Positions 21,239 to 29,938 of a stretch of 64,000 nucleotides of DNA are shown in pieces; position 1 is the first letter of the stretch; each line of letters begins with the position of its first letter. The position numbers and the translations under genes were made by a program. The notes beneath the pieces are model-generated. The model made no database searches, was not told where the DNA came from, and saw only the letters and a program-made list of their open reading frames with translations. The DNA comes from Thamnidium elegans (taxonomy: Eukaryota; Mucoromycota; Mucoromycetes; Mucorales; Mucoraceae): NCBI GenBank assembly GCA_025201345.1, contig JAIXMG010000037.1, positions 310,001 through 374,000 of the forward strand, read 5' to 3'.

Positions 21239-21440
21239 TACAGTGGGTACATAAATTAACCCACAAAACTTGTTTTTAGCGTATCTTTTGATTGAATAAA
21301 GCTAGATAGCTCAAATTTAAAAATATGTTACGTCTTCAAGTTCTAAACTAATTCCAGTAAGATGTTTGTGTTTAAATCGGAGATTCAATTAGAAATAGAA
21401 GATATGCGAAATCTTATTAAAAAGAGAAAACATAAAAAAA

Positions 21441-22102
21441 TTAATAGGTTGTATATCCCCCTTTAGCATTGATAGTAGCTTCAATTCTTTTGTGATAACC
21501 ATTGTAGTACTTATCCATATCGTCCTTGGTAGATCTGTTCCATCCATAATCAAATCTTCGCCATAATTCATCACCATTTTTAGGCTTAAGCGAACAACCG
21601 TCTAGTCTTTTCTTTACATGATGCCAGAGGTGCTCAATCGGATTAAGATCTGGACTACATGGTGGCCAGTCTTTGATATACTTCATGCCCTGGCTATCCA
21701 TTCAACTTTTGCTACTTTTTGAAGTGTGGCGCTTAGCACCATCCTGTTGAAAAAGAACATCACTATGGGTTAGACCGCAGTATCCCAATGTATCAAAGTA
21801 TGATGTCTGTAAAACATGTTGGTAAAGGTCTGAATTCATAGTTTTTTCAAGTAAACAACATGCATAACCAGGTCCAAATGCTGTCATACAACCCCATATC
21901 ACTATAGATCCTCCACCACTCTGTTTTTTACCTCTAAAGTTGAACGGCCTAAGTTTCTCACCTTTCAGAACTTACGTATATTCCGCTCCCTCTGATCCCC
22001 AGAGGTTTAACTTGGTTTCGTCTGAGAATACGACCTTCTTCCAATCTTCCACTGACCAATCACGATGTTCTTTCGCCCACTTATAACGTTTCTTCATATG
22101 CG
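21441..22102 (-). pseudogene. Tc1 transposase, C-terminal half
   Basis: Read from 22102 down: MKKRYKWAKEHRDWSVEDWKKVVFSDETKLNLWG (first Asp), IWGCMTAFGPGY, VLFQQDGAKRHTSK (second Asp), SPDLNPIEHLW (Glu), ending AKGGYTTY. In-frame stops occur after EGAEYT and before MDSQGMKY, so it is degenerate apart from the P1 insertion. It continues the N-terminal half at 28838-29196. Confidence 0.9.
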
Positions 22103-22104
22103 TA

Positions 22105-22400
22105 CACTATGGCGAGAAAAAATGATAAATTTAATCATCAATGATTGCAGAATCAGTGGACTGATTACAGCGTCAGTAATGATTCAAATTAAGCTGTACA
22201 GAAATAAAATTATCAGTGAGATTGAAGCTCCTCTAAATTAAGCACAGATTTACTTTTTTTTTCTCACTTTTTTTTTTTTTTTTTTTTTTTTTTTGCTAAC
22301 AAAAAATCGTCGTTTGAAATAAAAGTGATCTCAATCGTTAGACAATCATTGATGATAAGTTTATCAGTGAATAATATTTTTCTTTTCATAACACTGACTT
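22105..22400. repeat. P1 left subterminal repeat region
   Basis: Several copies of AATCATCAATGATT-like and ATCAGTG/CACTGAT-like motifs in both orientations, with a poly-T run at 22258-22294. Such arrays bind the transposase or its partner in CACTA elements (family knowledge). Confidence 0.6.
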
Positions 22401-22744
22401 ACCGTTATATTTAATATTCCGCCCAGTGAAATACTATATATAAGAGCTTTTTTTTTGAAGCATCATTGTAACTTTATTTTATTTTTTCTTAATTCTAAAT
22501 TAATACTGCCGTCAACCAGAATCGTAAAATAACTTCCACGGATTATTCTATTAGGAACATCGAGACTTTCATTAACTTCAGCACTACAAATATTCACAAT
22601 AAACATCACTTAAGAAATCGCAAGTCACGATCAAAGTAAATAAATCTTTTTTTGGCAAAACTGTTTTTTTTTTTGAGACAAAATAATCTTTTTATTAACC
22701 TTTTATTATTATTATCATTAAACGACGAAAAAAAAATTGTACTA

Positions 22745-25700
22745 CTACAACAAGTCGTTAATCTTGCCTGCATTTGTCGACATGTCTTTATGGAATGCTG
22801 TGGAAGGAGAAATCACGTAGAACCAGTTAGATGGCTCAACCTGGTTATTTTTCAGGTCTGTTTTTTGTATTAAACCGACTGTAGAAATTATATCAGCAAC
22901 GTCTATCACCGCGTACTTTTTATTTTCTGTTTCACTAAATGGCTGAACCATTGGTATAGATTTTGAATGAAGAGCAGTTTTGTGCGATTTCATGACCTCA
23001 ACGACAGCATAGAAACTTCCATGGGGTCTACTTTCTTCAAGTTCCAAGTCAATTTCAAAAAAGAATAAGAGCTTACCGAGATACCAGTTTGGAATAGATT
23101 GTAAACGATTATTGACCCTAGTAGTCATTAGAAAAGTGGAAATGTCAGCAATGGTAAATAAACATATATAAATAAAACGTACCTTTTTTTTACATTCGAC
23201 TCAAACATTACAAACTCTCCGCCTCTTTTAGTACAGCTTGCTGGTAATTTGGATTTAAAAAGAACAGAAGTAAGTACATGGGAGTCACGCCATAGTTTTG
23301 CTGCTGGCGTTATTATTAAGTCCAAGTTCAACACTAGTGGGCGGCCTTTGTTGATACCCAAGAAGCGACGCTTGTAAGATGCTATTGCTAGAATCAACGA
23401 ATCCATTCTAACCAAACCTTCAATAGTAAGGTCACCAGAATAACCCTTAGGTATCAAAACGGGAGAAGAAAATGGTTCCCATAGTTGTGGATAGTCATTG
23501 CAATTGTCTATATACGTAGCTGGATGCTTGACGAAGCCTGTCTTGTTACTTTCCGGGTTTCTATTATACAAAACAGAGAAATCAATCATACCGGTAGCTT
23601 CTAAAAATTTGAACCGTGTGATCCTTTCAAGAACATTTATTGCATTCGCATCCACATTCACTCTTGCTCTCATCTTCTTTTTGTAATTTCCAATCTCGCG
23701 CTCCATACTTCTAACACTAATGTTTCTTAAAGAAGAGCATTGTTCGATAATATGGGGGATGTGAAAAAGGTGATGCATCGACGACTTGTAAATAGAATTT
23801 GAAATAGCTTTTGCGGTAATTTGTCTATCAATATAGCGATACCAAGTTTCAAGAGAACTATATAGTTTAATCAAATAAGTAAGTTAAATAACACCAAACT
23901 AAAATTTACTTCTCGCTGAATACTCACTCCTTAATTTCGCCAATGTCAGCTTTAGATACTTCCCACTGTAAGGACAATGCGCATGCCCTAGTCAAAGCTA
24001 AAATGGCTGTTTTGATGGATGGATCTTCAAATAGACTGACAACTAGAACAGGTACAATATATATAAGCCACTGTATCCAGTCGATACTTCTATAAAGACC
24101 TTTTACATTTAATGGGTTGACAGGATGAAAGCCACCTTGAAATACCCCGGCCGGGATCAACAATCGCGAGTTTTGAATACCAACATTTAAGCATTCAAAT
24201 TGTTTATTCGACAACTGAAACGGATAGGCAGATTCATTACCGTAATATTTGTAGCTGTCATTATAACGTTTCGATAATAAATCAAAAAACAACTTGCTGA
24301 TATTGGAGATACCGTGAAGTTCGTCAAAACCAAAGGTACAGGAACCAGAAAACGTAGAGAGTGTTCCAAATATAGTTGGCTTCTTGATCCCATACGTGTT
24401 TTCACGCTTAAAAATAGTGATATGTGAGTATTATTATTAATTTTTGTTTTTTTTTAAAAAAAAAAGAACATACGTAAAGTGAGCTTGAATCCTCTAATAA
24501 TAAGCTTTCTTTAGACCTCAAAGGGGCAGTGCGATCTGCAAAATACATTCCAGCTCTTCGTGTATTTGGTGGACCGTCTGATCGTTGAGAACCCAGTGTA
24601 AGACAAAACCTACAGCCATTTTTTCTTTATTAGCGAAGAAGAAAAAAGGTTAGCTAATGTATTGCATTTTTTTTTATATACCTATGTACTTACCCAGTAT
24701 GTCCAGAAAAATTCATAAGTCTGTTACATTCAATACCATCACCATTTACAAAAAGAGCATATACTTTACATCTTATAGGAAGTTCTGTACCTATTTGGTT
24801 AACAATGGTTTTTTCCGAAAGTGTCTTGAGTTCGTTTACAATTGGTTTTAAAAAGGAATTAAAATCAGATTTGGATTTACCAGGAAGAATGCCGATTTGG
24901 AAAGTTGCGTGTCTGGCATATCTATCAAAAAGGTAAACAATTTAACTCGTTAATACTTCGTCACAACTTATTAACCAGTCTTTCTTTAACTTTTGTACCT
25001 TTCAGAACTTTCTAGATTCAATACAACAGCGTGGATCATGATCATACTTGAATGGGAACTTGAGGACGTAAACCCGTCGACATCAATTTTCAAGTATATA
25101 TTTATTATATTTTGGTCAGTGTTGATAGCTTGGCTACTATAAAGGTTCTTGAAAATCTCTCCGTCGAAGATATCAGCGTACGTATCATTGTTTCTTGTTA
25201 TATTTTCAATTACGTCTTTTTGGCGATCTATCAAGTTCTGACGTATTTCTTCTGAAGATATCATCTCTGCTACTTTATCTGCGATTGAGACCATTTTAGT
25301 GATTTTTGATAATAGTCTCGATGAATTGCATACTGGACAATTGAGAAGGTGATCATCTTCTAGACTATACAAATAGCATCCATTGTTACAAACGTCGTAA
25401 GATCTTGTCATCTGTAACGGTATAACATTCTTGACAAGGCTGGCACAGGCTTCATTGCTCAAGAGTTTGCTAGTAGTAGAGTCTGAATCAATATACAAGG
25501 TAATTTTTTTTTTTAAAAAAAAACTATTAGTCTCTAATAGGATCAATATAATAGTCTCAATTAATATATTTACCCAAGCTTTCGTCAGCAAGCATCATGT
25601 TGATTAAATGTCTCATTGCTCTTGAACCTTCTCGGCTGATGTTGTATGTATCACATACTTCTTCAAACATCACACTATATTTTTCGATATTGGTGAATGC

Positions 25701-26109
25701 AAATTTGGGAATATTCAAGTTATATTCAATATCATCATCAGCTTGCTCAAGATCTTCGAGTAATTCATTGTCAACTTCAGAAGAAGAAAAGGAGTCAGCA
25801 AGTAAACACTCAGAGTCAAATGGTTCTGTTATATAGATGGTTTAGTAAGTAAGACTATGGATATTTTATAGAATTTACGTGTCATTATCATTAATATTTA
25901 CCTTCGTTTTCTAAGAAATCACCAGTAGTTTCTGGCTCATCATTGAAATCCATGTACTCGCTGTAGTCATACTCACTTTCAGAATTATTTGCAACTGGGG
26001 GATTAATAATTGAAAGGGATCTGGCCTGTTGGACAAGGAGCTGGCGAACATAATTGATACTGTTGCTGGATACACGTGTACGCTTGTTGGGATTATAAGT
26101 ATAAGACAT
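22745..26109 (-). CDS. P1 transposase, CACTA/Plavaka (Tnp2-like), eight exons
   Basis: Starts at 26109 (MSYTYNPNKRTRV). Approximate exons: 26109-25902, 25825-25574, 25482-25015, about 24930-24697, 24612-24478, 24410-23934, 23862-23190, 23111-22745; all introns GT...AG by eye, about 930 aa. Features match fungal Tnp2/Plavaka transposases: a Cys cluster (CNNGCYLY...DDHLLNCPVC), the first-Asp region IYLKIDVDGF and GILPGKSKSDFNSFLKPIVNEL. Next come VNGDGIECNRLMNFSGHTGFC with a second Asp, and FGFDELHGISN, like the D-x-x-H box. The long C-terminal part has no motif I can name. The product should cut at the CACTA tips. Exon bounds after exon 3 are good to a few bases. Confidence 0.8.
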
Positions 26110-26777
26110 TTTAATAAGCTGTTTAATGGAATATTTTTATTTGAAATTAATGTAAGTTATTTCTTTTTTTTTCTGGGTACTTTTATACAAAAAAATAACT
26201 TGGCATTTTTTTTTTTTAAAAAAAAAGTGTTTTACGGTAGATATTTTATCTTTGACAATTAATTTCAAAATACTTGTTTGAACCACTCCTTGCGCTTTGT
26301 TTTATTTTCCTGGAACTATCGGTGTAAATGAGGAGATATTTCTTACTTGGCATTAGCTTCAAAATAGTAGTAGGAACCAGTCATAGAGCTTCGTTTAATA
26401 TTCTTGTGTAACCGAAAAGATGTTGTAGACAATAATTGAACGCTAAATGGACACAAGAGCCAAAATGAAGAGATTATACCGATAACATAAAGTAAATGTA
26501 CGTATGTATAAAAAATATAAAGCATTAAAATGATACCAACATGCTCCTAGACTAATACGATTGAATAGATGACTTGCTTTGAAAAATCTAGCCATTGGTT
26601 CCGCCCCTTTTTTTTTACTGTGATTTATTTCTTGCTTCTACCTAAACGGGACGTTTGACAGAAAACTATTTTGGTTCCTCGTCAGGTAAATAATGGATTT
26701 AAAATTGTATTTAAAGGAACTTTTTTACTTTAGAAAAAAAAAACATTCTACTTTTATTTTAAAAACGCAAATATAAT
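26110..26777. promoter_or_regulatory. Divergent promoter region of P1
   Basis: The 668 bp between two start codons facing apart, AT-rich with T-runs. It must drive both genes. No specific box is certain. Confidence 0.4.
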
Positions 26778-27773
26778 ATGACTGACGGCAATGAATACCC
26801 TTTGGACTCTCTTCGGTTTTTACAAGAGTTTGACGTCAATCCCTCTCTTTCTGACTCTGTTAAACTTGACACTCTTATAGGGGAAGTACGAGAAATTAAG
26901 GTGATGTTATCTCAACTGTTGGCCTTGAATAGTAGAAACTCTTCTGGCTTCTCTTTTAATCCTGTTTCATTGGGTTCAGGTAATAATTTGGTTAAGGAAA
27001 TAAATATTATTTTGCTTGGTTCTAACTACTGTTTGTTTATTTAGGATCTCGCTCTGTAAGTACAAGCCAGTTGCAAATCAACCCGTCTTCTTTTGAGATC
27101 TTCAATAGCCAAGAAAAGGTCGATGATATTGTAAGCAAGGCAAAAAGCAACCGTGGTAAACGTTGCTATGGTAAGAGTAATGTCTCTTTGAAAACTGGTG
27201 TAGCACCCAACAATGTGAAGAATCTGATCACAGCAATGTGTACTCTTTGGCTGGAAAAGAAGAATGTTACGTACGGCATGGCTACGACCGAAGAAGATCA
27301 TGAGGCACGACTTCAAGATGCAGTTGATCGATACGAAAAGACAAATGTATTGGTCACTCTGTTTGTTCGTACGCACTTTGAGAACGCAAACCAAGGATTT
27401 CGATGGTCAGCCATGTCAAAGGGAGACAGGGAACGCATGGCGTTGGTTGTCGAGCACATTGTCTTGGAGACGCTCACCAACCAAGCCTGTCTTCCGTTGG
27501 ATTGTGCAGAAGACAGCTGGGTAGCATGTTACTTGCTGTCTGTAGCTATTCGTAACGAAGGTTCAAGAAAGGCCGGAAGGAAATCAAACGTAAGCTATTT
27601 TATTACTTTTTTTTATTCGCATTATTAACTTTTTTTTTTTTGGATTGACATAATAGGTCGCTATTGAAGTCGACGAGTATTCAATCGCTGGTATGGTAGA
27701 AGAAATTGAATTACCACAGGTAAGTATTGATGGAGTCCATCAGGTGTTAGGCGAGAAGAGAAAAAGAGGTTAA
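26778..27773 (+). CDS. P1 second gene, protein of unknown function
   Basis: Three exons, 26778-26979, 27045-27589, 27657-27773; GT...AG introns, phases consistent, 287 aa. I do not recognise the family. The N terminus (residues 1-60) is acidic and predicted helical (DSVKLDTLIGEVREIKVMLSQLLAL), possibly a short coiled coil for oligomerisation. The middle holds a basic segment (SKAKSNRGKRCYGKSN) that could contact DNA, then a helical domain with Trp and Cys residues (LITAMCTLWLEKKNVTYG, FRWSAMSKGDRERM, LDCAEDSWVACYLL). The end is LGEKRKRG. It lies divergently to the transposase inside the P1 ends, so it travels with the element. By analogy to TnpA/TnpD pairs it may be the accessory DNA-binding protein; that is inference. 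Confidence 0.8.
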
Positions 27774-27798
27774 ACCAATAGAATCTTTGCCTTTTTTT

Positions 27799-27829
<31 letters not shown>

Positions 27830-28129
27830 GTATAAATAGCTTGTTTTTTTCTTTATTTTACTTTTCTTTTCTTTTTTTATTTTACTTTTCCTTCCTTTTT
27901 TCTTTTTTTTTTACAAATAAATAAAAGTTCTTTTTTTTTGAACTTTGTGTACAATTGTTCCCAATCATGTTATAATTCATCCCATTCTTCGAGATCAGGT
28001 AATGTTCTGTCAAGTATATAATTTATTTAGTTCTAACACTATTGTTTTTATTTTATAAAGCTTGTATTTCTACTACTACTCACTCTAAGGCTTTTTTTTT
28101 GCCTTTTGTAAAGCTAAATGGTAATTATA
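27774..28129. other. P1 3' noncoding, T-rich
   Basis: Follows the second gene, with long T-runs (27790-27829). A segment near 27950-28010 matches P2 near 30868-30920, showing that P2 keeps this part. Confidence 0.5.
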
Positions 28130-28322
28130 TCACTTGATTCAAACTTAATAGCTTATTCTAACTCTTTTTTTATTCAAGGCATTGTCTTATTCCGCCTGTG
28201 TATTCTCCTCTTATCTTACTGTGTGTTATTTATGTAATTATCACTTGATTCAAACTTAATATTTTATTCTAACTCTTTCTTTTATTCAGGGTATTAGCTT
28301 CTTTCATGTGTGTATTATCCTC
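28130..28322. repeat. Tandem duplication inside P1
   Basis: Two copies of a roughly 80-bp unit starting TCACTTGATTCAAACTTAAT, at 28130 and 28241 (period about 111). P2 carries one related unit near 31057. Confidence 0.7.
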
Positions 28323-28604
28323 TTACTTTACTATACCCTAATTAATTCCTGTACATACTAGAAGATAATAGCAGACTATAATATAAACATATACCCTTAC
28401 CCTTAATATACATAAATCCCACAAAAAACCATTTGTAAATAATAAAAAATTTCGCTTTTTTTTATAATTCCTTATTTTCTATATATAAATGTATCTCAAA
28501 ATGTGCTATCGATACCCTATTATTGAATAAATATTTTATGTAATGACCTTTTAATGATCCAATAAGAGCTGTAATCTTTTTTTAAGGTTAAACTAGCGAT
28601 ATTG

Positions 28605-28835
28605 ATAGCTGAATCAGTAATGATAAATTATTATCACTGATGATAAATCAAGCACTGATGATAATTTATTATCAATAGTGATAAATCAAGCACTGATGAT
28701 AGTCCCAATCATCAATGATAATCCTAATCATCAGTGATAAATCTTAATCATTGCTGATAAATTTATCATCAATGATAATTCAATCATCACTGATTAGCAG
28801 TGATGATAAATTTATCATTTCTGCTCGCCTTAGTG
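28605..28835. repeat. P1 right subterminal repeat array
   Basis: Dense array of GATGATAAAT / ATTTATCATC and AATCATCAATGATAA-type motifs in both orientations, ending in the terminal repeat. The last 20 bp are shared with the left end in inverted form. Confidence 0.75.
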
Positions 28836-28837
28836 TA

Positions 28838-29196
28838 ATATCAATGGCGGCTGTTGAATACTTAAATCTACACCTAAAGCCTAACTCTCTAATGACCTTT
28901 CGGGTGGCATTATAGCTAATTGAGTAACTAACACTACACAAGTATTTATGGACATCACGAGCAGACTGTAAGGAACCGGATCGAAGTTTTAAACGTATCA
29001 ATGTTTTAGTAAACGGCTTCACAATGCTGGGTCTTCCGGTATGTTGTCGAATATAATTTGGAATAATGCCTGATCTCAATCTGTTTACATGAGACTTCGA
29101 AACTGCAGTACGTTTCACAATGTTTATAGTAGGTTCACCTTTCAAAATCAGAGACTTAACATCATCACGTTTACTTTGGCTGAGTTTATAAGGCAT
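28838..29196 (-). pseudogene. Tc1 transposase, N-terminal half
   Basis: Starts at 29196 (MPYKLSQSKRDDVKSLILKG). It holds the paired helix-turn-helix DNA-binding region (INIVKRTAVSKSHVNRLRSG, then GRPSIVKPFTKTLIRLKLRSGSLQSARDV) and reaches AAIDI, where P1 begins. The open frame here runs a few codons on into the P1 end. The catalytic half is at 21441-22102. Confidence 0.9.
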
Positions 29197-29938
29197 AGTT
29201 ATTTTTAAAAGTGGTAAAATTTGGAGCGAAATAGTGAGTAGAAAATATTCGAAAAGTTCGAAGGTATTTATAGCATAAAATAGAGGAAGGTTTAAATATT
29301 AATATACTATAAATATATTTTAGATACATCTACGTGCCGGCCGTAAATGATTTATTACTTAAATTATGCGGAAAATTAAAAAAATTCCGAATCACTTTAT
29401 TTTCCTTACATCATGATTACGTCATAGAGAATAATTAAAAATTTATTCATAATAAAATTTAGACTCTTCTGATTTCTTTGATACTTAGCTTGAATAGCTA
29501 GTACCATTATTTGATGAGATAATTAGAAAACAAGTTTTGTGGGTCAATTTATGTACCCACTGTATTTGTCGTATTTGAGGTTGATATTTATATAAAACAT
29601 ATAAATAATCATATTGTGAATAAAAACAAGCTTAATAATAAAAATCTTCTAATATTTCAATAATAATGCATCCCGATACATTATTATTAAACACCGAAAT
29701 CAATACGGACATTTCTAGTGAAAACGGTTCCTACTTCTGACTTAAAATATAAAAATTTTAATCCAATAACATTAATGCGAGATAAGAGATATTGTAATAA
29801 CATTGGTCTTGATCCAGAACTAGCTACTCTGGATAAAAGAAAGGAACACCCATTGTTATAAGCAATACATTAACTCACATCAATGATATGAATATAGTAT
29901 AAATAATATACTCTAGGACATATAGAAAATATCTCCTT

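Follow-up and report, generated by a model that had tools for sequence, protein, structure and literature searches.

An autonomous-looking EnSpm/CACTA element with a divergent second gene, and its sister lineages, in Thamnidium elegans

CACTA elements are well known in plants. Members of the EnSpm/CACTA group such as maize Spm/En and soybean Tgm combine CACTA tips, 3-bp target-site duplications and asymmetric subterminal repeats with a tnp2/Transposase_21 transposase and a second, fast-evolving protein. Here we describe a family with the same set of features in a mucoralean fungus, represented by the element P1 in a 64,000-nucleotide stretch of the Thamnidium elegans genome (assembly GCA_025201345.1, contig JAIXMG010000037.1, positions 310,001 to 374,000), hereafter the window, whose own numbering is used throughout (Table 1). 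In Spm, TnpA and TnpD are spliced from one transcription unit (PMC1636069; here and below, publications are cited from parts of their texts), whereas the second gene of P1, gene B, is a separate, divergent gene without a recognised domain.

Comparable elements have been reported outside plants. EnSpm families of rust fungi likewise have CAC..GTG ends and 3-bp duplications, but the three described in that study encode a TET/JBP dioxygenase (Kojima 2025, PMC12730594), which neither P1 protein matches in Pfam; the main text of that paper contains no occurrence of 'Mucor'. TRC elements of animals and fungi also encode Transposase_21, along with a second protein that evolves fast and was proposed to resemble TnpA (DeMarco 2006, PMC1636069). 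The animal TRC elements differ from the P1 family in their 2-bp duplications and CCC ends, and in the parts cited their ends were characterised in three animal species and in no fungus; Transposase_21 relatives were reported there from Rhizopus oryzae in 2006, without defined ends. EnSpm elements in Mucorales are merely counted in the cited part of one genome paper (PMC7928374), and a search of open-licence papers by titles and abstract starts found no intact two-gene CACTA element with defined ends in Mucorales.

We consider it probable that P1 is an autonomous-looking EnSpm/CACTA cut-and-paste element, that gene B is its partner gene, and that it belongs to a set of sister lineages. An earlier note on this DNA had described inverse-oriented tips, TA flanks and subterminal arrays at both ends, and all of these were seen again in sequence tests. 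The tips are of the CAC..GTG type and lie in inverse orientation. Across the genome screened (34.1 Mb in 64 contigs), the P1 tip pattern gave 87 matches (44 + 43), compared with 2 (0 + 2) for the reversed control. Subterminal repeats of the kind found in EnSpm/CACTA elements are likewise present: the two 300-bp ends hold 4 and 13 copies of TGATAA, versus 4 in the 6.1-kb interior, and model shuffles of the same ends gave means of 0.42 and 0.95 and maxima of 3 and 4. A tip was paired only when a partner lay within about 13 kb of it, and four CACTAWGGCGAG tip pairs stayed outside the examined set (two on contig C23, spaced 11.8 and 13.1 kb, one on C19 and one on C33).

Gene models for P1 were obtained by enumeration of splice sites. 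The predicted eight exons of the transposase gene and three exons of gene B are joined by GT-AG introns, with no internal stop in either gene, in agreement with the eight-exon transposase and divergent three-exon gene read earlier. When the P1 proteins guided a spliced alignment to a single element from each of two sister lineages, B and C, the exon numbers were again eight and three, and this is comparative support for the predicted P1 introns; the lineage-C transposase is one residue shorter at its end. Among the matches listed for the P1 proteins, the named relatives come from Helicostylum pulchrum, Parasitella parasitica, Mucor bainieri and Thamnidium elegans.

Three lineages with near-identical tips occur in this one genome: A, to which P1 belongs, B and C. 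Seven full-length lineage-B copies were fetched, one of them with an insertion. Lineage-C pairs of full-length size lie on C25, C28 and C34, and the one on C28 was read (loci L054 and L056; its duplication is TAA). For lineage C, the tip pattern CACCANGGCGAG had 88 genome matches versus 8 for the control; counted by hand, 20 of its tip pairs are spaced 1.4-1.8 kb and three 6.5-7.3 kb. The shorter class includes P2, a second element in the window (Table 1), parts of which resemble the two sides of the full-length lineage-C element.

The lineages differ most in gene B and in their subterminal words. Transposase identity is 70% between A and B, 83% between A and C and 69% between B and C, and the corresponding values for the gene B protein are 47%, 56% and 43%; the lineage-C gene B product is 97% identical to the T. 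elegans protein P0014 (281 of 289 aligned positions), a value that would fit a host of this species or one close to it, or else recent transfer. The words are disjoint: TGATAA / ATCANTGAT in A, CGATAA / ATCGAT / AGCGAT in B, and AGCGCT / GCGCTA in C. Fifty-two of 53 distinct ends fell clearly into one motif class and one was undecided, in a sample drawn from the fetched loci rather than from all 175 tips, with many near-identical copies and including the ends of P1, L039 and L054/L056 on which the words had been chosen. Both P1 genes are under constraint. The A-C ratio of nonsynonymous to synonymous divergence (dN/dS) is 0.11 for the transposase and 0.38 for gene B, for which values range from 0.32 to 0.38, and at similar dS (0.87 and 0.92) the dN of gene B is 0.35 versus 0.10 for the transposase; in the A-B transposase comparison, synonymous sites are saturated.

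Lineages A and C also form a mosaic. In 200-bp blocks starting at window positions 24305, 24505, 25705, 25905, 26105 and 26705 they are 94-98% identical, compared with 56-84% in the other blocks covering coding sequence. The intergenic blocks give 97% (26105), 88% (26305), 40% (26505) and 97% (26705), so that tracts of 88-98% identity (24305-24704, 25705-26504 and 26705-26904) stand amid much higher divergence. Because these near-identical tracts lie in otherwise diverged elements, recombination or conversion is the probable cause: an exchange between A and C probably carried the 5' portions of the two genes, and a large part of the intergenic region, from one lineage to the other, with the body of gene B and the ends remaining distinct.

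Published work on plant elements offers a role for gene B. In maize Spm the subterminal repeats are recognised by TnpA, a kind of protein that varies strongly from family to family (PMC2613891, PMC1636069). Subterminal repeats diverge even within one species, and for soybean CACTA elements the repeats and their binding protein have been argued to diversify together, with tips and transposase conserved (PMC2613891). The A/B/C set shows this soybean-type pattern. Because disjoint subterminal motifs and a divergent gene B stand against conserved tips and transposase, gene B is most likely a TnpA-like protein that reads the element ends, a role we favour slightly over all others together. Under this mechanism, the 949-aa DDE transposase would cut at the 12-bp CACTAWGGCGAG tips, and P1 would insert through a 2-3 bp staggered cut. 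Gene B, divergent from the transposase gene across the short intergenic region that both share, would supply the TnpA-like partner that binds the subterminal word and joins both ends. In lineages A, B and C, tips and transposase have been kept, and gene B and the subterminal word have changed.

Several results weigh against this role. Pfam profile searches recognised no domain in gene B, and the structure model of the gene B homologue P0014 was unusable (mean pLDDT 39.1), as was that of the transposase homologue P0002 (28.0). With three lineages in all, the association of motif and gene B consists of three points, and the A-C dN/dS values include the near-identical tracts. Gene B could instead be a regulator or unrelated cargo, the arrays and the gene evolving fast and independently and the arrays being homogenised by slippage. 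This is a distinctly possible reading, since neutral turnover can occur in short repeats, and the missing domain, the unusable model and the comparison of only three lineages are compatible with it. It sits less easily with the retention of gene B, with three exons and dN/dS of 0.32-0.38, in the one element read per lineage, with the unbroken state of the gene in seven of the eight lineage-A copies, and with the same word recurring at both ends of an element while being rare in the interior.

L029 and L030, in both of which an A end is followed by an end of class B or of undecided class, were considered as chimeric elements; they lack a duplication and are better taken for adjacent fragments. 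A lineage-C tip pair is nested in L027. A more distant two-gene relative, L053 (C23:446500-453500), has transposase exons with weak Transposase_21 matches, one place being above the cut-off, and a homologue of gene B (32% identity), upstream of which transposase-like sequence lies on the opposite strand. The CACTAWGGCGAG tips are clustered, six of seven on the 2.68-Mb contig C1 lying within 56 kb and all seven on C6 within 88 kb, and several others lie near contig ends; these clusters could mark pericentromeric or subtelomeric blocks.

The copies of lineage A point to recent activity of the P1 family, which we regard as very probable. Seven further full-length copies carrying both tips differ from P1 by 2-17 substitutions, and all pairs among the eight by 0-21. 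Both genes are unbroken in four of the eight (P1, L025, L026 and L033). In the remaining four, transposase exons carry length changes, some of which could be assembly errors; in L034 a late change places the first stop at codon 946 instead of 950, and gene B of that copy is interrupted by a stop at codon 184. Thirty-one sites vary among the copies. The 2.5 kb outside the genes holds 23 of them and the 3.7 kb of coding sequence 8, divided into 5 for the transposase and 3 for gene B; the 0.5 kb of transposase introns holds none. The suggestion that P1 is complete and possibly autonomous is borne out, and P1 appears, from its sequence, to be an autonomous-looking, candidate live element.

In four of the copies (L032, L034, L038 and L040), one 1-kb flank is the same and no 3-bp duplication is present. 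For three of the four, the distance from the end of the element to the end of its contig is exactly 3766 bp (contigs C17, C37 and C59, measured by hand), and no TTAGGG run is present at the C59 end. Because of this exact distance and the lack of a TTAGGG run, an assembly effect is probable, and a larger mobile unit as the source of the flank was dropped in its favour; the four loci were kept in the copy and duplication counts. These loci, the existence of near-identical A/C tracts and the broken reading frames in half of the copies would fit a scenario in which P1 and its copies are inactive relics whose high identity stems from gene conversion or from duplication in the assembly and not from recent transposition. 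We judge this improbable, as the four copies with both genes unbroken occupy distinct sites, each with its own duplication, and P1 lies within a Tc1 element whose other copies are empty at that site.

The insertion site of P1 was examined with a 400-base query made of its flanks joined by a single TA. This query had 21 genome matches, two of which are the flanks of P1 itself; 11 span the whole query, 9 of them at exactly 400 bases. In all nine of the latter, the uninterrupted junction is exact, a check that covered these nine and not the two other full-query matches (399 and 398 bases) or the partial ones. Because these nine Tc1 sites are uninterrupted at the junction, the P1 duplication is the 2-bp TA, and the proposed precise insertion into a Tc1 transposase gene is upheld. 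The further claim that deleting P1 and one TA restores the Tc1 frame held in part: the frame is open through the junction, but two in-frame stops elsewhere in the same Tc1 copy mean that it holds no intact Tc1 gene. Across 21 tip pairs, 3-bp duplications were found in 10 and a 2-bp match alone in 3 (P1, L037 and L040, the last probably by chance); both lineage-C elements read have 3-bp duplications. The family thus falls within the 2-3 bp expected of CACTA elements, with 3 bp as its usual length, and the TA duplication is P1's own exception and no family trait.

Membership of P1 in EnSpm/CACTA is, in our judgment, almost certain, because of its CAC..GTG ends, the mostly 3-bp duplications of its family, the motifs of its transposase and the homology of that enzyme to a Transposase_21 protein. 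Elements that combine CAC..GTG ends and 3-bp duplications have been assigned to EnSpm (PMC12730594). L046, a paralogue from this genome, scores above the Transposase_21 cut-off (46.4 versus 28.6 bits), and the P1 transposase aligns with it over residues 150-748 (tblastn 2e-35; hhalign probability 99.4%). P0022, a protein annotated with PF02992, matches the P1 transposase in a profile search (9.4e-12), pairwise (2e-15) and by hhalign (96.7%); the alignment behind the profile search (A1) held pieces of L046 and L053, and the one behind both hhalign results (A4) was made without them. The D, D, C(2)C, H(3)H and E motifs keep their order and align with relatives, the partners for the E and H motifs being L053 and close homologues alone.

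Other searches count against the assignment. In Pfam, the P1 transposase had nothing above a curated cut-off (best DUF2840, E 0.068) and no PF02992 match at E up to 1, and ten of its homologues likewise had no family above cut-off. The genome has 16 Transposase_21 places, all of them outside P1 and the fetched A, B and C elements. P0022 was absent among the matches listed for a single-sequence protein search and came from the profile search alone. A sequence search of PDB with P1 gave no match and one with the profile a single chance match (E 0.37), and 8 of the 21 tip pairs have neither a 2-bp nor a 3-bp duplication.

The earlier note had called P1 'CACTA/Plavaka-like' from its motifs; similarity to tnp2/CACTA enzymes is present through L046 and P0022, and the Plavaka half of the label did not survive. 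The spliced transposase has no match to the Plavaka profile PF18759 at E up to 1, and the genome-wide absence of that profile is weak, as 14 control genomes gave none either. That P1 is a Plavaka or a TA-duplicating ESTA element is very unlikely: its own TA duplication and the C2C and H3-4H motifs between catalytic residues, which Plavaka, ESTA and EnSpm transposases have in common (PMC12730594), would permit it, but Plavaka ends are TGT..ACA or CATCA..TGATG (PMC12730594), the family duplications are mostly 3 bp and of varied sequence, contrary to ESTA, and it is PF02992 that a homologue matches.

Table 1. Features of P1, its insertion site and the neighbouring element P2, in window coordinates.
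Feature	Position	Strand	Description
P1	22105..28835	.	lineage-A EnSpm/CACTA element, 6731 bp; tips, duplication, 7 more full-length near-identical copies
Left tip	22105..22116	+	CACTATGGCGAG, 12-bp inverted tip
Right tip	28824..28835	-	CACTAAGGCGAG, 12-bp inverted tip
Left subterminal region	22117..22404	.	TGATAA / ATCANTGAT motifs
Right subterminal array	28536..28823	.	TGATAA / ATCANTGAT motifs, denser than left
Transposase gene	22742..26109	-	8 predicted exons, 949 aa, two stop codons at end
Transposase exons	26109-25902, 25825-25574, 25482-24999, 24921-24694, 24624-24474, 24406-23928, 23857-23183, 23117-22742	-	predicted
Transposase motif residues	D289, D376, C395/C398, H629/H633, E653		by alignment
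Intergenic region	26110..26777	.	separates divergent transposase gene and gene B
Gene B	26778..27774	+	3 predicted exons (26778-26979, 27045-27589, 27657-27774), 287 aa, KRKRG at end
Target-site duplication, left copy	22103..22104	.	TA
Target-site duplication, right copy	28836..28837	.	TA
Tc1-like host element	21239..29564	-	contains P1; 1593 bp minus P1 and one TA; inverted ends
P2	29939..31536	.	1598-bp non-autonomous lineage-C element; tips CACCACGGCGAG / CACCAAGGCGAG, CTT duplication, AGCGCT array

Taken together, near-identical copies with unbroken genes make P1 a candidate live element in an early-diverging fungus, and the A/B/C set makes the idea raised for soybean, that repeats and binding protein diversify together (PMC2613891), directly testable. 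A more speculative and rather unlikely extension is that A, B and C are separate transposition systems with a common transposase and 12-bp tip, in which gene B and the subterminal word were switched as a unit, aided by recombination in the A/C tracts near the divergent start sites. If so, the three lineages would form a natural series of specificity swaps in an accessory transposition protein, and a new lineage could deny its own non-autonomous parasites the use of its machinery.

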